This document shows, piece after piece, positions 1 to 28,424 of a stretch of DNA of 64,000 bases. The stretch spans positions 1-64,000 of the forward strand of contig NZ_BMFQ01000003.1 of the NCBI RefSeq assembly GCF_014638915.1, in the 5' to 3' direction. The translations under genes and the position numbers were made by a program. This DNA comes from Xanthomarina arctica. Lineage in GTDB: Bacteria; Bacteroidota; Bacteroidia; Flavobacteriales; Flavobacteriaceae. Position 1 is the stretch's first letter. Each line of letters opens with the position of its first letter. The notes under the pieces were generated by a model that worked only from the letters and a program-made list of their open reading frames with translations, searched no databases and was not told where the DNA came from.

Positions 1-71
1 TATATACTAACCTTAATTCTCTCTTTTATTCTTTCTAATTTATATGCCTTAATTTAGTGTTTTTATTAAAA

Positions 72-208
72 TGCTAACTTAAGCTGTATATAAAAAATGC
101 GTAGTTTAGTGCTAAATCAATGGAAAGTGCGTACTTGCTTTCATCCGATTTTCGTTCCGAAAATCCTCTGACACAAGCACGCACTTTTCATATACAAAAC
201 CGTTAGAT
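72..208 (+). repeat. attC-like palindromic cassette junction, site 0
   Basis: Imperfect palindrome of about 125 nt. Outer arms TGTATAT (85-91) and ATATACA (190-196) pair. Inner arms GAAAGTGCGTACTTG and CAAGCACGCACTTTTC pair, and the centre is CGATTTTCG / CGAAAATC around TTC. It ends in AACCGTTAG, with the presumed crossover G at 202. The same family recurs at 3507-3640, 5102-5234, 24144-24276 and inverted at 19614-19745. The 5' partner motif (TGCTAAC at 72) is less certain here because its cassette starts outside the window. Confidence 0.7.
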
Positions 209-221
209 AATATTAGATAAA

Positions 222-920
222 ATGAAACCTGAAACTGATTTTTTTAAAGCTTATTACTCTAGACAAAAAGATTATTTTGTGGAAGAAAATATTTTTAGTG
301 CTGAGAATTACTGGACTGAAGTGTTAAAACCCAGCAACATAAAAGACCATCATTTTATTGAAATAGAAGAGAGACTTAAATGCACATTACCAGAAGCATT
401 TAAAAATTTATACAAAGCTCACTACTCTGTAAATCTCTACGATATTATGGTAACCGTAGGTTATGTTTTTGCAATCCCTGGATCATTTGGCACTGTACTT
501 AAGCTTAGTGATATTGAAAAAATGCGTGAGATTGATGATTATGACATCAATGCTATTTCACTTATTGGAAACCCTGAAGGAGCAAATTTAAAGTATTTAA
601 AACAGTATCTGTTTGAAGAAAACTTAATATCATATCCCAAATTATTGGAACAAGGATTAATTCCTTTTGGAATTGTTAATCATGAATGGCACATCTGTCT
701 TGACACAAAGCAAGATAAAGTTAATCCCCCAATTGTTCTTTATTCAATCTCCTTTGCTACAGAATCTAAGGAAGCAACATCAACCAAAAATTGGTTTTCT
801 AATTTTTCATCTTTTATCAACTGCTTAACAGATTATTTAGAGACTGGAAATACTGAAAACTTCGATAAAATAGACCCTGATAATAACTATAAAATCATAT
901 ACAATTTCTGGGATCTCTAG
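222..920 (+). CDS. SMI1/KNR4 (SUKH)-like protein
   Basis: A 232-residue soluble protein. A motif typical of SMI1/KNR4 proteins lies near residues 40-60 (an acidic helix, then LPEAFKNLY). The later part has an IPFG...ICLD stretch around residues 143-160 followed by a conserved PIVLY segment, as in SUKH folds. Such proteins are often immunity proteins for contact-dependent toxins, but no toxin gene is next to it, so the role is inferred only. It is the single gene of cassette 1 (203-1001) and points the same way as the cassette. No signal peptide or membrane segment is visible. The ATG follows the cassette start by only 19 bases, so little room remains for a private promoter. Confidence 0.72.
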   Translation: MKPETDFFKAYYSRQKDYFVEENIFSAENYWTEVLKPSNIKDHHFIEIEERLKCTLPEAFKNLYKAHYSVNLYDIMVTVGYVFAIPGSFGTVLKLSDIEKMREIDDYDINAISLIGNPEGANLKYLKQYLFEENLISYPKLLEQGLIPFGIVNHEWHICLDTKQDKVNPPIVLYSISFATESKEATSTKNWFSNFSSFINCLTDYLETGNTENFDKIDPDNNYKIIYNFWDL

Positions 921-929
921 AAAAACATT

Positions 930-1007
930 ATCTAACAATAGCTAATAAAGCATAGTCTTGCCGCAGGCGCAACACAAGCCTACGGCTTCATAGCAAAACC
1001 GTTAGCT
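930..1007 (+). repeat. attC-like cassette junction, site 1
   Basis: Runs from ATCTAAC (930-936) to GTTAGCT (1001-1007). Its 5' side ATTATCTAAC (927-936) is the exact reverse complement of the start of cassette 1, GTTAGATAAT (202-211). The interior is palindromic: AAGCATAG...GCCGCAGG pairs with CCTACGGCTTCATAGC. This is the shortest site of the row, and its interior belongs to a different sequence family from site 0. Confidence 0.72.
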
Positions 1008-1071
1008 TTCATTACAGCAAACGAACCAATATCAAAGTATTTGAGAATTAATTAAGTATAAAAAACAGAAA

Positions 1072-2295
1072 ATGAAACAAGAAGAATTCCTAGAAGACTG
1101 CCAAGGTGGTAATGAAAAAATAATTTCTTTAAACTTAAAACAGGGTTTGAATCCGAATTTTGAAATTAATGGGAATACACCTCTAAATGCAGCGATACAA
1201 GGAGATCATCTACATATAGTTAAGCTACTTATTGATGCAGGTGCAGATGTGAATTTTCCAATTACCAATAATGAAACGGCCATTTTAATGTCCGCAGCCT
1301 TTGGGAATGTTGAAATTCTTAAAATACTTATTTCTAATGGAGCGCAACCACATGATCGGGATGCTGCTAATAGTTCAGTGCTATGTCGGGCATGTCAATA
1401 CACTAATGCAAAATTCGTAAAAACATTATTGGACGCAGGTTTACCTATTGATGATTGTTCTCATAATTGGACCCCATTGATTCATGCCGCCTATAAAGGA
1501 AGACTTGATATTGTTGAGATGTTAATTAGTATGGGCGTAGGTATTAATATAGAAACCCAAAAAGGACAAACGGCCCTTATGTTCGCTTGCGAACAAGGGC
1601 ATGCAGAAACGGTAAAACTATTACTGGAAGCAGGTGCAGATCCAAATATTGGCGTAAATAAACAACATCATTTATATGGAGGAGGACGTCAAGCCAGCCC
1701 TCTTAATACTGCAGCTTTTTGGGGTTATACTGATATTGTACGTATGCTGTTAGCTAAAGGAGCAGACATTGAAACTTCTGGAGAAAATGATAGAAAGAAC
1801 GCCTTGCACCTGAGTGCCATAGAGAAACATTATGAAGTCGTTAAAGAACTAATTGTGGCAGGTGCAGATCCGAATGTTAAAGATGGTTATGGTTCAACCA
1901 TTTATAGTTTAGCTGAGGAAAATGGAGTTCTTGTTGCATTGGAAGAAGCAATAGGGGAAAATCAAAAAAATGAAACTAATGATCGAGGAGATACAGATAT
2001 TTCAAAAATGGTTAATACCATTTCTTTAGCTTTAGAAAACATGAGTTTGAGTAAGACCTATGTAAATTTCCAAATAGACGAAGGTATTTGTTATTTGGTT
2101 GATGATTTAAAAAATAGAGAATTAATAGTTGAGCTGGAGGAAGACGATGGCTTTGATTTTGACATATACCATGAAAATGAGCAAGAGTACAAAACAATCA
2201 TGTCGGAAGTCTTTGAGTCCCTGCAGTCAAGTAAAACACTTAAAAACAAAGAATTAACTGACTTGAAATTAACATTTATCGATCATGTCATGTAA
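1072..2295 (+). CDS. Ankyrin-repeat protein
   Basis: A 407-residue protein with about seven or eight ankyrin repeats between residues 30 and 290. Each carries the TPL..A...G....V..LL..GAD.N signature, for example near residues 35-65, 135-160 and 165-195. The last 110 residues are acidic, carry no ankyrin pattern, and form a separate C-terminal region I do not recognise. No signal peptide is visible, so a cytoplasmic protein-binding role is likely. It is the only gene of cassette 2 (1002-2459), in cassette orientation, about 70 bp after the junction. Partner proteins cannot be read from the sequence. Confidence 0.88.
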   Translation: MKQEEFLEDCQGGNEKIISLNLKQGLNPNFEINGNTPLNAAIQGDHLHIVKLLIDAGADVNFPITNNETAILMSAAFGNVEILKILISNGAQPHDRDAANSSVLCRACQYTNAKFVKTLLDAGLPIDDCSHNWTPLIHAAYKGRLDIVEMLISMGVGINIETQKGQTALMFACEQGHAETVKLLLEAGADPNIGVNKQHHLYGGGRQASPLNTAAFWGYTDIVRMLLAKGADIETSGENDRKNALHLSAIEKHYEVVKELIVAGADPNVKDGYGSTIYSLAEENGVLVALEEAIGENQKNETNDRGDTDISKMVNTISLALENMSLSKTYVNFQIDEGICYLVDDLKNRELIVELEEDDGFDFDIYHENEQEYKTIMSEVFESLQSSKTLKNKELTDLKLTFIDHVM

Positions 2296-2335
2296 AAAAT
2301 ACATTGTAGAAAAAGCAAGGATCAAATTAACGAAA

Positions 2336-2465
2336 AGCTAACAATATGTATAAGTAATGCGGGGAAAATGCTATATTTTAATGAATTATTAATTAATGAG
2401 CGGCAGTGTAACTTGATAGTTTGGAGCTTCGAAATACCGCACTACTCATACAAGAACCGTTACCA
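2336..2465 (+). repeat. attC-like cassette junction, site 2
   Basis: AGCTAAC (2336-2342) to GTTACCA (2459-2465). AAAGCTAAC (2334-2342) is the exact reverse complement of the cassette 2 start GTTAGCTTT (1001-1009). The outer arms ATGTATAAGTAATGCGG and CCGCACTACTCATACA pair with few mismatches. It is a third sequence family with an AT-rich interior. Confidence 0.7.
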
Positions 2466-2483
2466 CACATTTGAGAAAAAACA

Positions 2484-2897
2484 TTGGGAAATAAAATACT
2501 AACATTTTTAAATAAATACGGACTTATTTTTGGAGGAATATTTATGATTTTGGTAAGCCTAATCATAATTCGAAACGGATATTTAGACAAAAAAATTACG
2601 GAAAGTAATAAAACAGTTAACGTAAAAGTTATCGACTGTTATGAAATTGGAAAGAGAAATTATTTTCTGAAATTCGAATTTAATGGTAAAACTTTTGTTA
2701 AACGGACTAAAGAAAAATATTGTAAAGAAATAAACAACACGGAAAACATACAACTATTGACCAATCAAAATCACGACCGATTTATTTTTGCGGACGAATA
2801 TAAAACTGACAATGATTTTGCTTATGGATTTCTTTTACTTGGATTTGCGTTTGTGATAATTTTTAAAGGATACCGAAATTTAAAATCGGATAAATAA
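2484..2897 (+). CDS. Small two-TM membrane protein, DUF3592-like
   Basis: A 137-residue protein with a hydrophobic helix at about residues 12-30 and a second at about 112-130. The 80 residues between them are soluble and could form a small beta domain. The TM, short beta domain, TM layout resembles DUF3592 proteins, but I see no diagnostic motif. The open frame begins at a TTG (2484) 24 bases after the cassette junction; the first ATG in frame (2544) would remove part of the first helix, so the TTG is preferred with some doubt. It is the only gene of cassette 3 (2460-3036) and points the same way. Confidence 0.6.
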   Translation: MGNKILTFLNKYGLIFGGIFMILVSLIIIRNGYLDKKITESNKTVNVKVIDCYEIGKRNYFLKFEFNGKTFVKRTKEKYCKEINNTENIQLLTNQNHDRFIFADEYKTDNDFAYGFLLLGFAFVIIFKGYRNLKSDK

Positions 2898-2908
2898 ATA
2901 AAAACGTG

Positions 2909-3042
2909 TGGTAACACCGTGTAAAAAACATTGCTTATTTTAGACTTATCGAAAGGTCGTTGCTCTTTTGTTAGCTACTGATTTTCCTGCGGAAAATCCT
3001 CGCATACAAAACCGCAACATTTCTTACACAAAACCGTTGTAC
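2909..3042 (+). repeat. attC-like cassette junction, site 3
   Basis: TGGTAAC (2909-2915) to GTTGTAC (3036-3042). GTGTGGTAAC (2906-2915) is the exact reverse complement of the cassette 3 start GTTACCACAC (2459-2468). The interior pairs GATTTTCCTGCG with a GGAAAATC arm and ends in TTACACAAAACCG. A relative of this family lies inverted at about 10003-10125. Confidence 0.72.
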
Positions 3043-3062
3043 ACAAGCTGAAAAAACCACGA

Positions 3063-3497
3063 ATGACAGAAAAAATCATGGATAATATTTTAGGGTTTTA
3101 CGCAAGTTTCAACTTTGGAGAAACTGATTCTGAATTAATCAGGTCATACTTGTGGAGCGAAAATGGATTAAAAAACAAACTCAATTTCCTGAAATGGCAA
3201 GATTTCGGAACTGACTTAAAACTGATTCTCTTTGAATTTTATGTAAGACCAATTCCTTACGAACGTAAAAACATAAAACCGATTGGAAGTTTTCGCAGAA
3301 AAGAACAATCTGTCGGAATACCAATAATATTGGATGACCAAAACTTTTTCAGACTCAAGGAAAACGAAAGACAATTATACTTTAAGAATACGATTTTAGA
3401 GAAACTCGAATTATTAACTGAAAAAATAAAGCGGAATAAATTAGATACTAATATTTCCGAACTTAAAAGTAAAGTGGAAAAAACGTTGAAAGGATAA
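3063..3497 (+). CDS. Conserved hypothetical protein of cassette 4
   Basis: A 144-residue soluble protein that I do not recognise. It is rich in Lys, Glu and aromatic residues, has no signal peptide and no membrane segment. A basic stretch near residues 58-80 (RPIPYERK, then GSFRRKEQ) and a charged C-terminal helix (about 105-144) are the main visible features. It fills cassette 4 (3037-3634) alone, in cassette orientation, with its ATG 27 bases after the junction. Being the single gene of a cassette between two clean junctions supports a real gene rather than a chance frame. Confidence 0.6.
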   Translation: MTEKIMDNILGFYASFNFGETDSELIRSYLWSENGLKNKLNFLKWQDFGTDLKLILFEFYVRPIPYERKNIKPIGSFRRKEQSVGIPIILDDQNFFRLKENERQLYFKNTILEKLELLTEKIKRNKLDTNISELKSKVEKTLKG

Positions 3498-3506
3498 AAA
3501 GCCAGT

Positions 3507-3640
3507 GTACAACACTGTTTATAAAAAATGCGTAGTTTAGTGCGAAACCAAAGAAAAGTGCGTACTTGCTTTCATCCGATTTTCGTTCCGAAAACCCTCT
3601 GACACAAGCATGCAACTTTCCATACACAAAACCGTTAGCA
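3507..3640 (+). repeat. attC-like cassette junction, site 4
   Basis: GTACAAC (3507-3513) to GTTAGCA (3634-3640). GTGTACAAC (3505-3513) is the exact reverse complement of the cassette 4 start GTTGTACAC (3036-3044). The interior is almost identical to site 0 (GAAAAGTGCGTACTTGC, then the CGATTTTCG hairpin tip). The crossover point would be after G3634. Confidence 0.75.
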
Positions 3641-3674
3641 ACAAGCTAAAACAAAAATTACGACACAATATAAA

Positions 3675-3704
3675 TTGTAGATTAAAAATTTAAAATTACA
3701 TTTG
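3675..3704 (+). promoter_or_regulatory. Bacteroidota-type promoter of the tyrS leader
   Basis: TTG at 3675-3677, a 19 bp spacer, and TACATTTG at 3697-3704 match the TTG / TAnnTTTG consensus of the Bacteroidota primary sigma factor. The start point would fall near 3710, a few bases before the leader peptide ATG at 3714. The promoter lies inside cassette 5, so the cassette brings its own transcription. Confidence 0.65.
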
Positions 3705-3713
3705 CATTAGAAA

Positions 3714-3818
3714 ATGAAAAGATTGAATAACATATTACGCCTTCCTTATTTCAGCACTTATTATAACAAAATAATATCTGCTTGGAATGTCTATGTGTAT
3801 ACTTCAAATAATAACTGA
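3714..3818 (+). CDS. Tyrosine-rich leader peptide of tyrS (attenuation)
   Basis: A 34-codon frame, ATG 3714 to TGA 3816-3818. Five of 34 residues are Tyr (positions 12, 16, 17, 27 and 29; the core reads PYFSTYYNK and ends VYVYTS), with one Phe and one Trp. It lies between a good promoter and an intrinsic terminator placed immediately before tyrosyl-tRNA synthetase. This is the arrangement of ribosome-mediated attenuation: scarcity of charged tRNA-Tyr would stall the ribosome on Tyr codons and favour read-through. I could not identify a convincing anti-terminator pairing by eye, so the mechanism is inferred from the layout. Confidence 0.65.
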   Translation: MKRLNNILRLPYFSTYYNKIISAWNVYVYTSNNN

Positions 3819-3843
3819 TAATTATAAATTATAACATAACTAT

Positions 3844-3873
3844 AAAGCCCGAGCATTTGCTCGGGCTTTTTTT
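3844..3873 (+). terminator. Attenuator hairpin in front of tyrS
   Basis: Perfect 11 bp stem AAAGCCCGAGC / GCTCGGGCTTT with an ATTT loop, followed by a run of seven T. It ends 12 bases before the tyrS ATG at 3886 and 25 bases after the leader stop. No complete gene upstream in the cassette needs a terminator, so it can only regulate tyrS. Confidence 0.8.
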
Positions 3874-3885
3874 ATTTAAAAAAAT

Positions 3886-5094
3886 ATGGAAACAATAACT
3901 AGATTAAAAGAAAATGTAGAAATCATTCTTCCTGAAAATGGATTGGAAGAAAAGTTAGAACAAGCGAAAAAAGAGAATCGAAAGCTCATTATAAAACTTG
4001 GTTTTGACCCAACTGCACCAGATTTACACTTAGGACACGCAGTTGTACTAAAAAAACTCAGAGAGTTTCAAGATTTAGGGCATCAAGTTATAATTTTAGT
4101 TGGAGATTTTACGGCAAGAATTGGAGACCCTACAGGAAAGAACAAAAGTAGAAAACCATTATCAGTAGAAGCTGTTAAACATAATGCTGAAACATACATC
4201 AATCAATTATCTAAAATCATAGACATTGATAAAGTTAAAATAGTTTTTAATTCTGAATGGTTAGACAAATTATCATTTACAGAAGTGATTCAAGTTTTAT
4301 CAAAAGTGACCGTTGCTCAGCTTCTGCATAGAAATGATTTTAATAAACGGTTTACTGAAAACACACCAATTGCAATGCACGAGATGGTCTACCCTATTTT
4401 ACAAGGTTTTGACTCGGTAGAAATTAAGGCAGACATTGAAATGGGAGGCACAGACCAACTTTTTAACTGTACAATGGGGCGAAAACTTCAAGAAACTTTT
4501 GAGATGAATCCACAAATTGTAATGTGTATGCCATTATTAAAAGGACTTGATGGAATAGAAAAAATGAGCAAGTCGTTAAACAATACAATAGGTTTAACAG
4601 ATAAGGCAAAAGATATGTTTGGAAAAACGATGTCTATTCCCGATAATTTGATTGAGGAATACCTTCATTTAACAACCGATTTCTCTTTAAACGAAAAACA
4701 AGCAATTAAAAACAGCTTAAACAATGGAGAAAACCCAATGGAAATAAAAAAAATAATTGCTAAAAATATTATTACTCAATACCATAATAGTAGCCTAGCT
4801 CAACAAGCAGAAGAACACTTTAAAAACCAATTTCAGAACAAGAAATTTGAAGACAAAGAATTTGAACCAGTATTAATTAATAATATCCAACAAGAAAAAA
4901 AGACAATTAAATTAATAGATTTATGTATTCAATTAAAAAAAGGGTTATCAAAATCGGCTATCCGGAGATTAATTGAAGATGGCGCAGTGCAAGTTAATTT
5001 GAAAAAAAACAAAGATATAAATACAGAAATAACCATAAAATCAGGTACAAAAATAAAAATAGGAAAAAGAGATTTTTACGAATTAATAGAATAA
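3886..5094 (+). CDS. tyrS: Tyrosyl-tRNA synthetase, TyrZ-like type
   Basis: A 402-residue class I aminoacyl-tRNA synthetase that charges tRNA-Tyr in the cytoplasm. Visible motifs: HLGH at residues 48-51, the GDFTARIGDPTGKNKSR block near 80-97, the tyrosine pocket around MYxxxQGFDSV (about 165-178), KMSKS at 226-230, and a C-terminal S4 RNA-binding domain from about residue 340. The GDFTARIGD block and length suggest the TyrZ-like form rather than the roughly 430-residue form usual as housekeeping TyrRS in Bacteroidota, so this is probably a second copy. It is carried in cassette 5 (3635-5228) behind its own promoter, leader peptide and attenuator. A role in resistance to a tyrosine analogue or D-Tyr avoidance is possible but speculative. 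Confidence 0.9.
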   Translation: METITRLKENVEIILPENGLEEKLEQAKKENRKLIIKLGFDPTAPDLHLGHAVVLKKLREFQDLGHQVIILVGDFTARIGDPTGKNKSRKPLSVEAVKHNAETYINQLSKIIDIDKVKIVFNSEWLDKLSFTEVIQVLSKVTVAQLLHRNDFNKRFTENTPIAMHEMVYPILQGFDSVEIKADIEMGGTDQLFNCTMGRKLQETFEMNPQIVMCMPLLKGLDGIEKMSKSLNNTIGLTDKAKDMFGKTMSIPDNLIEEYLHLTTDFSLNEKQAIKNSLNNGENPMEIKKIIAKNIITQYHNSSLAQQAEEHFKNQFQNKKFEDKEFEPVLINNIQQEKKTIKLIDLCIQLKKGLSKSAIRRLIEDGAVQVNLKKNKDINTEITIKSGTKIKIGKRDFYELIE

Positions 5095-5101
5095 GGCCGG
5101 C

Positions 5102-5234
5102 TGCTAACACCTTATATAAAAAATGCGTAGTTTAGTGCTAAACCAAAGGAAAGTGCGTACTTGCTTTCATCCGATTTTCGTTCCGAAAATCCGCTGACAC
5201 AAGCACGCACTTTTCATATACAAAACCGATGTGC
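5102..5234 (+). repeat. attC-like cassette junction, site 5
   Basis: TGCTAAC (5102-5108) to GATGTGC (5228-5234). TGCTAAC is the reverse complement of the cassette 5 start GTTAGCA (3634-3640); extending to 9 bp gives one mismatch. The interior is nearly identical to sites 0 and 4. The 3' core reads CCGATG where the others read CCGTTG, so this end may have mutated. Confidence 0.7.
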
Positions 5235-5237
5235 ATA

Positions 5238-5372
5238 ATGCGGAAAATCGTACAAATCATCAAAATTAGAACTAAAAATGCCAATGCAAAAACAGCACAT
5301 TCATTTTCCCCTACGCCAAATGTCAACGCTAAAAAAAATAAAAGAGCTGTTTTTTTGCCAACGCTCAAATGA
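5238..5372 (+). other. Possible 44-codon frame at the start of cassette 6
   Basis: An ATG 9 bases after the junction opens a frame of 44 codons ending TGA at 5370-5372. The predicted peptide is very basic and rich in Lys, Asn and Ala, with no domain I recognise. It is on the plus strand, in cassette orientation, whereas the main gene of this cassette is on the minus strand. It may be a gene remnant or chance; the remaining 5373-5427 holds nothing I recognise. Confidence 0.25.
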
Positions 5373-5427
5373 CGATAATAACGAATAAAAGTACTTGAAT
5401 ATTTAGATGTTTATGACAGGTATGTGT

Positions 5428-6171
5428 TTAATATGCATCAAACCAAAAATCAACAGTTACCCTTTCTGTTGTTGGACTTGATTGTTGTTCATTTTGGCCT
5501 CTCGATCCGCCACGTCCACCGCCGCTTCGTCCACCGCCGCTACCATTTCCTCCGCGACCACCACCACTTCTCATTCCTTGGCTTTGACCTTGCCCTCTTT
5601 CTTTATTACCACTACCTTCCATTTTATTGGCAACAACGCCTATAGATAATTTAGAAAAATCACTGTTTTCTTGGGAAGCTATTTTAGCTTTTGGGGTTTT
5701 AATTGAAAATTCAAATAATTGACTCGAAGCTGTATAGTGGTTTGCAATTGCAATATCTAAAGTATTTAAGTCTTTATTAAACGCTTGCTTTTCTTCAAAA
5801 GAACCATACTCTGCTTCTGCAGGTAATTTTTCAATCATACTATTTAAGTCAATAGCGTTGATATCAATATTTTCTTGTGAACCTTGTCGAGATTGTCTTG
5901 GTTCGTTACCATATGGATATTTTACATACACATCCTTTTTAGTCTTTCCTTTTATATCATAATAAATGGTAAGACCATTTTTAATGATTGACATTGCCGT
6001 ATTTCTATCTGTGGTGCTTATATTTAGGTAAACATAATTGTTGTCTTGTGAAACTTTATATAAAACGTTTTCATTGCTTATTTGCGTAGTATCTGCTGGA
6101 AAACTACTTTTATTTGATGCGAAAGAAGAGAGACTTGAAAGTGTTAAGAGTACGAGTATTAGATATTTCAT
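5428..6171 (-). CDS. Secreted protein with Gly/Arg-rich tail
   Basis: A 247-residue protein with a clear signal peptide (residues 1 to about 18, ending SSFAS). A conserved-looking beta region follows (about 35-90: YVYLNISTTDR, then a GLTIYYD segment), which resembles a family of Bacteroidota secreted proteins of unknown function. From about residue 185 to 232 the chain is almost all Gly, Arg, Ser and Gln (repeated GGGRGG), before a short ordered end (VTVDFWFDAY). The low-complexity part is not an RGG RNA-binding context because the protein is exported. It lies antisense to the direction of cassette 6 (5229-6457). Confidence 0.65.
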   Translation of the reverse strand: MKYLILVLLTLSSLSSFASNKSSFPADTTQISNENVLYKVSQDNNYVYLNISTTDRNTAMSIIKNGLTIYYDIKGKTKKDVYVKYPYGNEPRQSRQGSQENIDINAIDLNSMIEKLPAEAEYGSFEEKQAFNKDLNTLDIAIANHYTASSQLFEFSIKTPKAKIASQENSDFSKLSIGVVANKMEGSGNKERGQGQSQGMRSGGGRGGNGSGGGRSGGGRGGSRGQNEQQSSPTTERVTVDFWFDAY

Positions 6172-6312
6172 TTATTGTAAATTTTAGAATGTTATTATAA
6201 ATTTTTAATAGTTATAGTATGTAGACTATCAAAATTGATAAAGGTTTAATCATTTATAAAAAAACCTCATTCTAAAATCCGATAAATAAAGAATGAACGC
6301 GAAAAGCATTAT

Positions 6313-6463
6313 ACACAACAATGTGTATAATTCATTGCTATTACTCGCCTCCTTACGACAATCCGTGCGGATTTTGAACTAAACCCAAAAAGTTAGACAC
6401 TATTTAAGTGTAATTTTATGGGAAGAAAAGTCAAGTACAATTACGATTTCAAACACGTTGTGT
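6313..6463 (+). repeat. attC-like cassette junction, site 6, interrupted
   Basis: ACACAAC (6313-6319) to GTTGTGT (6457-6463). GCATTATACACAAC (6306-6319) matches the reverse complement of the cassette 6 start (5228-5241) at 12 of 14 positions. The left arm (GTGTATAATTCATTGC) is of the family seen at site 7. The right half of the palindrome is missing and is replaced by an insertion-sequence end. Confidence 0.55.
6375..6453 (+). mobile_element. IS3-family (IS150-like) end fragment
   Basis: TGAACTAAACCCAAAAAG at 6375 resembles the terminal inverted repeat of IS150-group IS3 elements. 25 bases further, an ATG (6418) opens MGRKVKYNYDFK, the usual start of a flavobacterial IS3 OrfA. The frame breaks off after about 12 codons where the cassette junction core CACGTTGTGTG begins. 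Only about 80 bp remain, so this is a fossil. Confidence 0.6.
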
Positions 6464-6555
6464 GCAAGCTTGACCCATACTGAAATAAGGCTACACAATT
6501 TTAAACCTTATGTTTGAAAAATGACTTTTATATAAGAAACACTCTAGGATTCAAG

Positions 6556-7761
6556 TTAAAATGTTTTTGGAATAGTAAAGAAAAATGTACTTCCAATTTT
6601 CAATTCAGATATAACTTTTATCTCTCCTCCAAGATTATCAATAATCTTCTTTACGGAAGCTAATCCGATACCTGTTCCAATATTTCCATGCCTATCTTCA
6701 ACACCAACAACATTAAAAATATTAAATATTTTATCTAGAAATTCAGCCGGAATACCTTCTCCATTATCTTCCACTAACAAATTATACTTGGATTCATCTT
6801 CAGATATATTAATTTTGATTTCAACTTTTGATTTTAGATTGTATTTAATCGCATTAGTTACTAAATTTACAAGCACTTGAATTAGAGCCGATTTATTAGT
6901 ATTAATTGTCTTAGTACTACCTTCAAAATAGAAAGAAACAGTTTTGTTTGGGTCAGTTAATTTAATTAGATCTTTTAAAAGGTCCTGAACTATTATTAAT
7001 TCATTTCTATCCTTTAGCAATTCATCACTTTTATAAAACTCTAATAGACCATCAATATAACTTTTTAAGGAATAAGAAGAAGATTTAAGATATTTCAGAT
7101 ATTGCTGTGATTCATCATTTAAATTCCCTTTGTTTTCATCTTCAAGTAATTCGGTTAGAGAAATGATATTAGCCAATGGAGATTTAAGGTCATGAGAAAC
7201 AACTTGAGCAAATTTTTCCAATGCTTCATTTCTTTTATTTAATTTATCCTTTAATCGGATAAGTTTTAAGTTTTGATATCTTTGCTCAAACAAATTTGTT
7301 ACCTGTTTTGCCATTGCAATAAGTGCATTTTTCTGCTCATCTTTTAATTTTCTAGGTTTGGTATCATAAACACATAATGTTCCAAGCTTATATCCATCAG
7401 AATTAATTAATGTTGCTCCAGCATAAAAAATTGCTTGATAGTCCGTTACCAATGGATTATCATGAAATCGCTCGTCTTCTCTCGAATCCTCAACGATTGT
7501 AATCAATTCATCAGAATTTATGGCATGCCCACAAAAAGAAATTTCTCTTGGTGATTCATTAAATGGAATGCCATGATGTGATTTTAAAAAATTTCGATCT
7601 TTATCTAACAATGTTACCAAGGATATTGGCACTTCACAGATATATGCCATTAAAGCAGTTATATTATCGTAACTTTCTTCTGGTAATGTATCTAAGAGTT
7701 TATATTTGTTTACTGCTAATTGCCTTCCATGCTCATTCTTTGGAAATTTAGGTGCTATCAT
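6556..7761 (-). CDS. GAF-domain sensor histidine kinase
   Basis: A cytoplasmic kinase without membrane segments. A GAF domain covers about residues 15-165 (includes SFCGHAI and the GTLCVYD motif). A short coiled coil leads to the HisKA helix (FAQVVSHDLKSPLANI, with the phospho-acceptor His) and the ATPase domain with N box (NLVTNAIKY), G1 (DNGEGIP) and G2 (GTGIGLA). The ATG at 7761 is chosen because relatives begin MIAPxxP; an upstream ATG at 7788 would add nine residues. No response regulator is adjacent, so its target is unknown. It lies antisense in what appears to be cassette 7 (6458-7990). Confidence 0.85.
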   Translation of the reverse strand: MIAPKFPKNEHGRQLAVNKYKLLDTLPEESYDNITALMAYICEVPISLVTLLDKDRNFLKSHHGIPFNESPREISFCGHAINSDELITIVEDSREDERFHDNPLVTDYQAIFYAGATLINSDGYKLGTLCVYDTKPRKLKDEQKNALIAMAKQVTNLFEQRYQNLKLIRLKDKLNKRNEALEKFAQVVSHDLKSPLANIISLTELLEDENKGNLNDESQQYLKYLKSSSYSLKSYIDGLLEFYKSDELLKDRNELIIVQDLLKDLIKLTDPNKTVSFYFEGSTKTINTNKSALIQVLVNLVTNAIKYNLKSKVEIKINISEDESKYNLLVEDNGEGIPAEFLDKIFNIFNVVGVEDRHGNIGTGIGLASVKKIIDNLGGEIKVISELKIGSTFFFTIPKTF

Positions 7762-7827
7762 AAAAACTGTTTGTTTTTTAAAATTCAAAAATAAGGTAAA
7801 TTACTAAACAATTACATAATCATCCTC

Positions 7828-7996
7828 AAACAACAGTTTACAAAAACGTGTATATTTCATTGCTAGTTCTAGCCTACGTGGAAAATCCTACGGATTGTCC
7901 ACTGGTTCGGTTCATTTTTACTAATTTAGGTGCTTAAACACGCCACACACGAGCGAAGCGAACTGGCGAATCAAATCATATATTAAACCGTTACCA
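7828..7996 (+). repeat. attC-like cassette junction, site 7
   Basis: The 3' core GTTACCA (7990-7996) follows TATTAAACC. The body contains CGTGTATATTTCATTGC on the left and a long arm with CGGATTGTCC and GCGAAGCGAACTGGCG. The 5' core is doubtful: AAACAAC at 7828-7834 is only a partial match to the cassette 7 start (GTTGTGT at 6457). Same family as site 6 and the degenerate site near 27.65 kb. Confidence 0.55.
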
Positions 7997-8010
7997 TACA
8001 TACCCAAACA

Positions 8011-8487
8011 ATGCCGAGAATTGAACTTCAAACTGAAATAAAAGCTGATAGAAATATCGTATTTGACTTATCACGAAGTATCGATTTACATAAAATATCG
8101 ACTGAACAAACAAATGAAGAAGCAATAGCTGGAAAAACGAGTGGATTAATTGGATTAGATGAAAGCGTAACGTGGAGGGCAAAACACTTTGGAATTTATC
8201 AAAAACTCACTTCCAAAATAACGGAATTTGATAAACCGAATTACTTTGCAGACGAAATGGTTACAGGAGCGTTTTCAGAATTTAAACACGAACATCACTT
8301 TGCGGAATCAAATGGCGGCACTTTGATGACTGACTTTTTTGATTATAAGTCACCTTTTGGGATTTTAGGAAAGTTAGCCGACAAGTTGTTTCTCAAAAAA
8401 TATATGACTGAATTATTAACTGAACGGAATCGTGTTGTAAAAGAATTTGCGGAATCTGAAAAGTGGAAAGAATTACTAACTGAATAA
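8011..8487 (+). CDS. SRPBCC (START-like) family protein
   Basis: A 158-residue soluble protein with the START/Bet v1-like pattern: an N-terminal strand with an Ile/Phe pattern (IELQTEIKADRNIVFDL), a central strand (VTWRAKHFG) and a C-terminal long helix (KYMTELLTERNRVVKEFAES). Proteins of this fold bind small hydrophobic ligands; this subgroup resembles COG4276-type proteins, whose ligand is not known. The ATG is 20 bases after the core of site 7, placing it as the gene of cassette 8, in cassette orientation. I could not find the matching 3' core (expected TGGTAAC) after the gene. Confidence 0.75.
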   Translation: MPRIELQTEIKADRNIVFDLSRSIDLHKISTEQTNEEAIAGKTSGLIGLDESVTWRAKHFGIYQKLTSKITEFDKPNYFADEMVTGAFSEFKHEHHFAESNGGTLMTDFFDYKSPFGILGKLADKLFLKKYMTELLTERNRVVKEFAESEKWKELLTE

Positions 8488-9918: not shown

Positions 9919-10003
9919 TTTACCTATAAGAAGATTCGTTGAAATTTCTTTTGTATTAGATTTATGTACTAATCGTTATAATTTTCTTAAAACTGTTTTA
10001 CAA
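9881..10003 (-). repeat. Cassette-front segment repeated inverted at 24.8 kb
   Basis: Read on the minus strand from 10003 leftwards, about 122 bases match 24776-24897 with about nine differences and one small gap by eye. The segment starts exactly at the core of an attC-like site (ACCATTGTAAAACAG). The two copies sit behind attC-like sites of different families. Confidence 0.75.
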
Positions 10004-10130
10004 TGGTTTTGTATTTGGAAAGTTGCGTGATTATGCACGAAGATTTTTCGAAAGAAAATCAGTAGATAGCAAGCAAAGTAACTAACTTTAGTTAATCTAA
10101 AAGTAGCAATTTTTCAGATAGCGTGTTGGT
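10003..10130 (-). repeat. attC-like site in inverse orientation
   Basis: On the minus strand this reads ACCAACACGC...AAAAATTGC...ACTGATTTTCTTTCG / AAAATCTTCGTGC...ATACAAAACCATTG, the same family as site 3 (2909-3042). The 3' core is CCATTG rather than CCGTTG. A 27-codon frame on the minus strand (10138-10221, MEIKKYLDNY...) ends just before it and may be the remnant of its cassette gene. Confidence 0.55.
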
Positions 10131-10376
10131 AAATTAGTTTTTTATTTGAACAATAATTTCGTTCGTATATTTCCAATTATATTTACTGTAGTTATCTAGA
10201 TATTTTTTAATTTCCATATTCTCACTCTACTTACTTATTAATAACTATTACTAATAAATAGATAAAGTCTATGGCTAGATTTGGGTTATAAGCCCTATCA
10301 GGTAGTCTGTTATGGGATTGTCTTTAACAGGTAAAAGCTTCTAATAAGACGTACTATTAAATTTAAGTATAAAACA
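10131..10376. other. Intergenic, little recognised
   Basis: Apart from the 27-codon minus-strand frame at 10138-10221, this AT-rich stretch holds no gene, repeat or motif that I can support. Confidence 0.4.
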
Positions 10377-19567: not shown

Positions 19568-19613
19568 ATAATATAATCTATGGCTTGATTTTATATTTTT
19601 ATAGCTTGTTGCT

Positions 19614-19745
19614 AACGGTTTTATAATTGAAAAGTGCGTGCTTGTGTCAGCGAATTTTCGGAAGGAAAATTGGATGAATGCGGGTACGCACTTTCCTTTG
19701 GTTTAGCACTAAATTAGGCGTTTTTTATATACAGCTTAAATTCGC
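19614..19745 (-). repeat. Isolated attC-like site, inverse orientation
   Basis: Read on the minus strand it is the same family as site 0: TTAAGCTGTATATAAAAAA at the left, GAAAGTGCGTACCCGC, a CAATTTTCC / GAAAATTCG tip, AAGCACGCACTTTTC, then AAAACCGTTAGCAACAAGC. The core of the next cassette (GTTAGCAAC on the minus strand) points toward the 18509 gene, but no matching 3' core was found beyond that gene. The remaining 19746-19907 holds nothing I recognise. Confidence 0.65.
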
Positions 19746-19907
19746 AAACCTATTTTTTAGTTTAATAGACTAATTCAGGTACAATTAATCTTCTATTTAG
19801 TTTGTTTTTTAAATCAAGTTTTTAGCAACATGACATCAGCTAATGCTAGATTTAAAAAAATCTGAAAGCCTCTTTTTTGTATAAACGTGCATGTCATGGT
19901 TTTAGCT

Positions 19908-24135: not shown

Positions 24136-24143
24136 AGCACTAC

Positions 24144-24276
24144 AGGCAACACTGTTTATAAAAAATACGTAGTCTCGTGTTAAACCAAAGGAAAGTGCGT
24201 ACTTGCTTTCATCCGATTTTCGTTCTAAAAATCCGCTGACACAAACACGCACTTTTCAATTATAAAACCGTTGGCA
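24144..24276 (+). repeat. attC-like cassette junction
   Basis: AGGCAAC (24144-24150) to GTTGGCA (24270-24276), interior nearly identical to sites 0, 4 and 5. Its 5' core predicts a cassette start of GTTGCCT, which is absent upstream, in agreement with the 5' truncation of the preceding gene. Confidence 0.7.
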
Positions 24277-24284
24277 ATAATTTA

Positions 24285-24635
24285 ATGAAAACCATAATTC
24301 AAACATTATTTTTAATTATAATTTTGCAAAGCTGCACTAATCAGAAGAATAACTCTGAAATATTTGGGCATTGGATTTCTACCAAAAGCACAAATACTGT
24401 AGAACTACAGTTTTTTAAGGATTCCCTAATTTATAATGCTTGGGAAAAGACAACTAAATTCAAATGGGAAAGCAATAGAACAAAAATTTACTATGTACAA
24501 TTAACGAATATTAACCCTGAATTAGAAACTGACTTTATTATGGAATATAGACTTAATTCAGAAAAAGATACGCTTTTTGTAAAAACCTCAGAATCTAATT
24601 TCACGAATGAATTTATAAAAAAAACTGCTGACTGA
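24285..24635 (+). CDS. Small lipoprotein, cassette gene
   Basis: A 116-residue lipoprotein: signal with lipobox LQSC (Cys at about 17). The mature part has a lipocalin-like or calycin-like beginning (IFGHWIS, then VELQFFKDSLIYN) and alternating strands (YRLNSEKDTLFVKT), as in small bacterial proteins with a GxW start. Its exact role is unknown. The ATG lies 15 bases after the junction core at 24270, in cassette orientation. The matching 3' core (ATTGCCAAC) is not found; the following site is degenerate. Confidence 0.6.
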   Translation: MKTIIQTLFLIIILQSCTNQKNNSEIFGHWISTKSTNTVELQFFKDSLIYNAWEKTTKFKWESNRTKIYYVQLTNINPELETDFIMEYRLNSEKDTLFVKTSESNFTNEFIKKTAD

Positions 24636-24669
24636 ACAAATAGTGGAAAAAATAACTGAAATAAAAAAA

Positions 24670-24782
24670 CTATTTCAGTTTAGTACTAAATCAAAGAAAA
24701 GTGCGTACTTGGTTTTATCTAATTTTATTTCCGGAAATCCGCTGACACAAGCCCGTACTTTTCATATACAAAACCATTGTAA
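24670..24782 (+). repeat. Degenerate attC-like site
   Basis: Contains AGTGCGTACTTGG, a degraded tip and AGCCCGTACTTTTCATATAC, ending AAAACCATTG (the core G is A). Left arm is scrambled (ATAACTGAAATAAAAAAAC). It precedes the cassette-front segment shared with the 9.9-10.0 kb region. Confidence 0.55.
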
Positions 24783-24897
24783 AACAGTTTTAAGAAATTT
24801 TAGCGATTAGTTAATAAATCTTATACAAAAGAAATTTCAACGAATCTTCTTATAGGTAAATCATGTGAAACGCTTTAAAAGTAAAAGAAATGCCATT
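24776..24897 (+). repeat. Cassette-front segment, second copy
   Basis: Matches the minus strand of 9881-10003 from the site core through GTGAAACGC and on to GCCATTC. The minus strand of its last 40 bases encodes the same LLLLKRFT end seen in the broken DUF3995 gene. It stops at the terminator hairpin. Confidence 0.75.
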
Positions 24898-28247: not shown

Positions 28248-28424
28248 AACGGAGCGTATAAAATCGTTCAGAATTTATTGCTTTTTACTCTCCTATTCAT
28301 GAAAATTCCGTCACTTTTCTATTCGTTTTTTATTTGCTAAAAGAGTTGCCTAACCAGACAACGTATCATAAACAAAACCCTGAGCATACATAAAAATATT
28401 CTCGACTAGATTGAAACCTAAAAT

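Follow-up and report, generated by a model that had tools for sequence, protein, structure and literature searches.

The stretch analysed here (the window, 64,000 nucleotides) forms the left edge of contig NZ_BMFQ01000003.1 (C3) of the 3.9 Mb genome of Xanthomarina arctica, and its left end carries a row of integron-like gene cassettes that is, because of this position, cut off by the contig end. The initial annotation had described a series of cassettes separated by palindromes, in which the first bases of cassettes 1 to 6 recur, exactly or in part, as the reverse complement (R'') at the start of the following palindrome, and had characterized the series as one without an integrase. All eight palindromes lie where they had been placed, and the exact end matches of cassettes 1 to 5 span 10, 9, 10, 9 and 7 bases including GTT. 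Cassette 6 matches at 12 of 14 positions, again as annotated, and its core reads GAT, not GTT; for cassette 7, on which no claim had been made, only 3 of 14 bases agree. When the same window ends were paired wrongly (42 combinations), runs did not exceed 7 bases and averaged 3.0. A cassette typically consists of one gene and an attC-like site that is about 125 bp long (Table 1). The comparisons set out below, all of them made on sequences, identify the window's left end as belonging to an integron-like cassette system of Flavobacteriaceae that is spread over the whole genome.

Table 1. Cassettes, attC-like elements (E1 to E8 in the array) and recombinase gene. Positions refer to the window unless contig C3 is named; R1 is the covariance model described in the text, applied at E <= 0.001; aa, amino acids.
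Feature	Position	Strand	End match and R1 score	Gene and remarks
Element E1	71..212	+	R' run of 10 with next R''; R1 141.1 bits	Cassette 1 begins at GTT core 202-204; preceding cassette truncated by contig edge
Cassette 1 and element E2 (about 926-1011)	203..1001	+	10 bases; E2 not found by R1	222-920, 232 aa, SMI1/KNR4 (SUKH) family (Pfam PF09346, 1.5e-11)
Cassette 2 and element E3 (about 2332-2467)	1002..2459	+	9 bases; E3 not found by R1	1072-2295, 407 aa, ankyrin repeats (Pfam Ank_2, 1e-49)
Cassette 3 and element E4 (2904-3046)	2460..3036	+	10 bases; R1 111.9 bits	2484-2897, 137 aa, no family above cut-off
Cassette 4 and element E5 (3502-3644)	3037..3634	+	9 bases; R1 147.3 bits	3063-3497, 144 aa, without Pfam match
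Cassette 5 and element E6 (5097-5238)	3635..5228	+	7 bases; R1 148.2 bits	3886-5094, 402 aa, tyrosyl-tRNA synthetase-like (Pfam tRNA-synt_1b, 2.2e-77)
Cassette 6, decayed core GAT, and broken element E7 (about 6303-6463)	5229..6457	+	12/14; E7 not found by R1	5428-6171, minus strand, 247 aa
Stretch from E7 to E8 (7833-8000)	6458..7990	+	3/14; E8 R1 60.8 bits	6556-7788, minus strand, GAF/histidine kinase (Pfam HATPase_c, 1e-22)
Last gene past E8	7991..8487	+		8011-8487, 158 aa, Polyketide_cyc2 (weak); no element found to close the array
Solitary attC-like element	9994..10136	-	R1 81.2 bits	
Solitary attC-like element	19606..19747	-	R1 106.8 bits	
Two attC-like elements in tandem (24139-24280, 24643-24786)	24139..24786	+	R1 134.0 and 83.2 bits	
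Solitary attC-like element, weak	28251..28390	+	R1 54.8 bits	
Tyrosine recombinase	C3:831132-832337			402 aa; heads co-oriented array on same strand from 832368

For a wider search a covariance model with rough E-values (R1) was built from 36 elements of the X. arctica genome. At E <= 0.001 it recovered five of the eight window palindromes (E1, E4, E5, E6 and E8) and did not detect those near 930, 2336 and 6313; a scan of the whole window with Rfam at gathering thresholds gave zero matches. In the whole genome R1 found 73 matches at the same threshold, and a 15-base pattern of the right end of the element, with at most one mismatch allowed, matched 43 times as against 11 times for the reversed control. 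The elements are clustered and the clusters are mostly confined to one strand, with 10 of 10 on the minus strand at C2:590-612 kb, 9 of 9 on the minus strand at C2:686-695 kb, 6 of 6 on the plus strand at C3:832-842 kb, 7 of 7 on the plus strand of the small contig C6 and 5 of 6 on the plus strand at the left end of the window. Arrays occupy C3 at either end and C1 and C5 at their left ends, and they extend throughout C6 and C7. At least one element was present in 311 of 397 sampled Flavobacteriaceae genomes (R1, E <= 1e-5), a sample in which only 8 candidates per genome were scored and stricter filters were applied.

Matching of cassette ends was assessed by comparing the bases after the GTT of one element with the reverse complement of those before the AAC of the next, the comparison being confined to adjacent elements in which both cores, AAC and GTT, are exact. 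In X. arctica, where 48 of the 73 R1 matches lay in fetched loci and 34 of these had exact cores, 22 pairs agreed on average at 6.45 of 7 bases and 16 were perfect, while 2000 shuffled pairings had a mean of 2.94 and a maximum of 4.05. Among relatives, 193 of 203 matches had exact cores, and 157 pairs reached a mean of 5.76 of 7 (81 perfect) against a shuffled mean of 2.54 and maximum of 2.92. The two arms of a single element were perfect over 7 bases in 0 of 34 cases in X. arctica and in 3 of 193 in the relatives; each arm of a site thus goes with a different neighbour, which is what successive insertion of circles would produce. Since zero pairs were perfect over 10 bases, the R arm comprises about 10 bp including GTT. 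A search for chained cassettes that made no use of the model, and that carries no strand information because it is symmetric under reverse complement, yielded 133 cassettes in 41 recombinase loci compared with 2 when each locus was shuffled once by a Markov model. Across the genome, cassette ends therefore match far above chance, which supports the proposal of the initial annotation that the units are attC-like recombination units obeying the R'/R'' rule.

The units also move as wholes. When 177 cassettes, cut at successive elements, were compared by BLAST, 36 pairs shared at least 300 bp, nine of them between genomes, one between two arrays of X. arctica and 26 within one locus. A stretch of 968 bp is shared at 95.8% by two genomes with recombinases that are 46.6% identical as proteins, two others with recombinases 37.1% identical share 860 bp at 91.4%, and 605-609 bp at 80% are common to X. 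arctica and another genome, the recombinases being 45.7% identical. Flanks were inspected for eight pairs (five between genomes, one between X. arctica arrays, two within a locus). In these the identity spans the cassette from core to core, the adjoining site itself retains an identity of 0.61-0.82, and the flanks beyond it fall to 0.58-0.64, compared with 0.61 (maximum 0.64) for random pairs; one flank value (0.237; 75 versus 300 bases compared) was excluded from this range. Exchange of whole cassettes with breaks at the core, which the initial annotation had proposed as a test, is thus borne out. The base at which the break falls is hidden by the sequence around the core, which most sites have in common.

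Folding was evaluated on excised sites simulated in silico. The bottom strand folded better than the top strand for 25 of 25 sites of X. arctica and 133 of 139 of the relatives, and excision improved the fold relative to the inserted state in 22 of 25 and in 122 of 139 cases, respectively, with a mean z of about -4 against shuffled sequences. RNAalifold found changes on both sides in 5 of 9 pairs of the L arm, and true L arms pair at 11.59 of 14 positions in relatives as against at most 8.35 when partner arms were shuffled among sites. The L stem can be laid out as 16 pairs, of which positions 7 and 12 are A-C or C-A when read on the top strand and hence G-T on the bottom strand, and the other positions alternate among A-T, G-C and C-G. 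The A-C or C-A combination occurs at these two positions in 31 and 29 of 34 X. arctica sites, in 144 and 139 of the 193 found in relatives and in 91 and 76 of 96 sites from recombinase clades B, P and others (for which 98 of 178 matches were used). Over all positions of the L stem the bottom strand forms 697 G-T pairs and the top strand 23. Conserved extrahelical bases were not seen in this sequence-level layout; by analogy with the role of such bases in IntI integrons, the two G-T positions may instead mark the strand.

For the genome as a whole, the claim that an integrase is lacking fails. No recombinase adjoins the window array itself, but 0.83 Mb away on the same contig a tyrosine recombinase gene heads a co-oriented array. 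Its product is the genome's best match to the IntI model of NCBI, TIGR02249, at 185.5 bits compared with a cut-off of 265; among the 397 family genomes, none contains a protein above this cut-off, and matches at E <= 1e-30 occur in 166, most of them ending near model position 180. By this model the recombinase is not IntI and would therefore escape an IntI search. The NCBI model that scores it highest is NF040815, site-specific tyrosine recombinase/integron integrase (205.1 bits against a cut-off of 220), which is passed by two relatives from clade B (234.9 and 234.2 bits) and which also accepts the XerD-like protein of X. arctica (223.1 bits), so that the name of this model is no test of identity. 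Homologues at E <= 1e-60 are present in 156 of the 397 family genomes, and a 34-row profile detects them in 112 of 395 genomes of a sample of the phylum; named relatives include Mesonia, Subsaximicrobium, Lutibacter, Wenyingzhuangia and Aquimarina. The recombinase gene carries in-frame stops at seven of the loci studied (L101, L106, L107, L112, L120, L121, L124), often near the end of the match, with one stop in most of them, two in L120 and four in L124, and elements or arrays persist in most. Three phage records contain partial matches to the recombinase, and 63 plasmid records, 49 of them from Acinetobacter, contain relatives, all below 60% identity and four covering at least 80% of the query.

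In a tree of 71 rows the array-linked recombinases form one clade (100/100) within a clade of sampled Bacteroidota rows (100/98), separate from IntI (100/99) and from Xer (100/97), and the XerC- and XerD-like proteins of X. arctica fall into the Xer clade. The branches nearest to the array-linked clade hold IntI, one XerA and one archaeal row; as their support is not full (91/88, 92/75), the clade may, judged by this tree, be sister to IntI. Arrays also occur in tree clades B and P, in the latter in about half of the loci tried. In the alignment to VchIntIA of Vibrio cholerae (PDB 2a3v), residue 181 is followed by residue 247, whereas the query advances from 284 to 307, from which it follows that about 43 residues of the IntI insert are absent from the recombinase. 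According to passages of PMC3053210, several of the residues through which IntI touches the extrahelical bases of attC fall in the missing stretch.

Recombinase and arrays are linked. In 41 recombinase loci (that of X. arctica and 40 of relatives), all 206 elements detected by R1 share the strand of the recombinase gene and follow it, and 32 of these loci have elements downstream. Recombinase matches, from the homologue search or the IntI model, were obtained in 153 of 204 genomes with 5-8 elements, in 52 of 107 with 1-4 and in 15 of 86 with none (Fisher's exact test for any versus no elements, 6e-16). Past the recombinase gene, at a distance of 31 bp in X. arctica, lies an attI-like site that consists of TATATTT, six variable bases and then ATATAACNA directly followed by GTT. 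An ATATAAC-like sequence with GTT was present within 260 bp of the 3' end of the gene in 47 of 62 loci, a count in which the search itself accounts in part for the conservation within its pattern and the loci are not all independent, some contigs being represented twice (for example L089 and L155, L091 and L156). The TATATTT-like block about 20 bp upstream lies outside the searched pattern and is widely shared. At 33 of the 47 sites the bases following GTT recur as R'' within 4 kb with at most one mismatch of 7; among the remaining 14 sites, several are located where a contig ends. The array on C2 (minus strand of L049) has attI-like sites at 3125 and 4519 with no recombinase gene just upstream, and one of them is followed by an exactly matching R'' 745 bp further on; the sequences suggest that these sites are additional points of entry, served in trans.

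From the arrays, the end rule, the common strand, the attI-like site, the exchange of cassettes between species and the covarying paired arms, all of which are apparent in the sequences, we infer that the recombinase beside the arrays performs the cassette recombination. The left end of the window is probably part of a chromosomal integron-like system operated by a tyrosine recombinase other than IntI, with the activity of the enzyme deduced from its context. Cassettes would be inserted as circles at GTT cores; the recombinase gene is followed by its attI-like site and then by cassettes on its own strand. The recombinase would act on the bottom strand in its folded form, which the two G-T positions of the 16-bp L stem would distinguish from the top strand, and its N-terminal domain would provide the structure recognition for which IntI uses its extra insert. 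The window array would be a distal or secondary, partly decayed one that is either served in trans or split from the recombinase only by assembly gaps. A more far-reaching proposal, to which we give about an even chance, is that of a second integron lineage in Bacteroidota, in which an N-terminal domain resembling those for fork recognition and two G-T wobble pairs replace the insert of IntI and the extrahelical bases, and whose cassette pool is shared across genera.

Several observations weigh against these proposals. Most loci were fetched with only about 1-2 kb upstream of the recombinase gene, so that the lack of elements upstream says little and the common strand is the stronger point. 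Nine of the 41 recombinase loci have no element, six of them with less than 2 kb of room and three with more than 17 kb (L097, L106, L115). At the thresholds used, 106 of 311 element-bearing genomes have no recombinase match, which fits loss, divergence or remnants, and 15 genomes have a match without elements. The 12-mer core of attI is not specific, with 10 matches in the genome against 7 for the reversed control, and the claim of an attI-like site therefore rests on position and not on the motif alone. All sites compared were found with a model made from X. arctica sites, which favours the same bases, the wobble positions included. The N-terminal domain has a weak structural likeness to UvsW/XPB that is nearly tied with eIF1-type folds. 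The N-terminal domains of UvsW and XPB are related to the HARP domain of SMARCAL1, a structure that is absent among the structure matches listed, which excludes nothing. Pfam searches with ten N-terminal or related sequences at E values up to 10 gave weak and mixed matches with no HARP model listed, the best being DUF5710 on a clade-P relative (0.00055, below cut-off), and an N-terminal profile against PDB sequences gave nothing useful.

Part of the evidence is shared with systems that are already established. GTT/AAC cores and folding of the bottom strand are common to classical attC sites, and passages of PMC8618304 and PMC9668308 describe clusters of attC sites lacking an integrase (CALIN) as common and wider spread than IntI; the cassettes might accordingly be classical ones, moved by IntI from elsewhere (plasmids, other species), beside which the neighbouring recombinase is incidental. 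This we consider unlikely, given that IntI is missing at the cut-off from all 397 family genomes though 311 bear elements, that a recombinase with its own attI-like site heads co-oriented arrays in many genera, and that the L stem is unlike the described layout with extrahelical bases. Host XerC/XerD or another recombinase could also be supposed to move the cassettes, leaving the neighbouring enzyme with a different task, for the genome encodes XerC- and XerD-like proteins as well as other tyrosine recombinases. The XerC and XerD of X. arctica, however, belong to the Xer clade and were not found adjoining arrays, and arrays lie beside 37 of 55 recombinases with the N-terminal extension as against 5 of 47 shorter ones, a set that is mostly Xer-like and from other phyla, which makes this comparison no clean test of the N-terminal domain. 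Of the five short array loci, two contain long frames that had been misbinned (L241, L262) and one a broken copy (L124). An involvement of Xer proteins or other recombinases thus appears highly improbable. That some copies are solitary or decayed (those at 9994, 19606, 28251 and others) would suit dispersed palindromic repeats, similar to miniature inverted-repeat transposable elements (MITE) or repetitive extragenic palindromes (REP), that lie between genes by chance. Such an origin is hardly credible, as it is already contradicted by the shared or duplicated unit, which is a gene plus one element from core to core, and by end matches that connect neighbouring elements and not both ends of one element.

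The left half of E7 is normal and its right half is unrelated DNA. This right half contains a frame of 21 codons starting at 6418, which we take to resemble the start of an IS3-type transposase. The stretch between E7 and E8 is decayed or rearranged, because its cassette ends fail to match. In cassette 5 (3714-5094) the synthetase gene is preceded, judged by eye, by a short leader frame with many Tyr codons and by a GC-rich hairpin with a T run, an arrangement resembling a transcription attenuator; the synthetase has one other match in the genome (C1:1036783-1037721, 30% identical). Cassettes near the recombinase of X. arctica (L045:6834-15016, L047:2546-3256) include defence-like genes, namely for a PDC-S45-like protein, a cytosine methyltransferase adjoining a large ATPase-like protein, and a PDC-S15 protein.

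IntI is the enzyme by which an integron is defined. If the proposed system is real, the capture of folded single-strand cassettes would not be tied to this enzyme and a second form of gene capture may exist; Flavobacteriaceae would hold a cassette pool, seen in 311 of 397 genomes, with a recombinase that IntI searches leave unreported, and one could ask directly what enables a recombinase to use a hairpin. Messier and Roy reportedly found in 2001, to go by the title of their article, that the additional domain of IntI is necessary for activity. Passages of PMC8138268 also report that this domain is needed, and state that the insert is not fully conserved in an integron-like subgroup of tyrosine recombinases, in which the recombinases described here may have their place; neither that subgroup, as presented in these passages, nor NF040815 ties the family to cassette arrays. 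Excerpts of PMC9024848 credit Bacteroidetes with In0 only at an earlier time and now with one complete integron in Salinibacter ruber, and passages of PMC8618304 and PMC9668308 list Bacteroidota among the integron-bearing phyla. Searches of the open-licence PMC literature on integrons and the HARP domain (with passages of PMC8352920, PMC2426708, PMC4035279 and PMC6213257) brought up no such system among the papers listed; they did not extend to subscription journals and preprints, so that an earlier description is possible.

The initial annotation retains its attC-like units, the R'/R'' rule and whole-cassette exchange, and loses the absence of an integrase; the sites, moreover, are unlike canonical attC. 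The window array resembles a CALIN in having attC-like sites without an IntI gene and differs in that the genome carries its own candidate recombinase heading an array. Xer and XerA proteins share the lack of the IntI insert, and the best solved structures by sequence are XerA (5hxy, 1.2e-39; 4a8e); the array-linked recombinases differ by their position outside the Xer clade (100/97), their extra N-terminal domain and their linked arrays. As in IntI integrons, a recombinase gene heads the array, albeit one for a recombinase other than IntI, a site that by its sequence is attI-like lies beside the gene with GTT, the start of a cassette pairs with the R'' of its own attC-like site, and whole cassettes are exchanged. 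Compared with VchIntIA (PDB 2a3v), however, the recombinase falls in a different clade, has an added N-terminal domain and is without about 43 residues of the insert. Passages of PMC3053210 describe extrahelical bases for the attC sites of IntI; in their place the sites described here have two G-T positions, set in an L stem of 16 bp, and their R arms measure about 10 bp.

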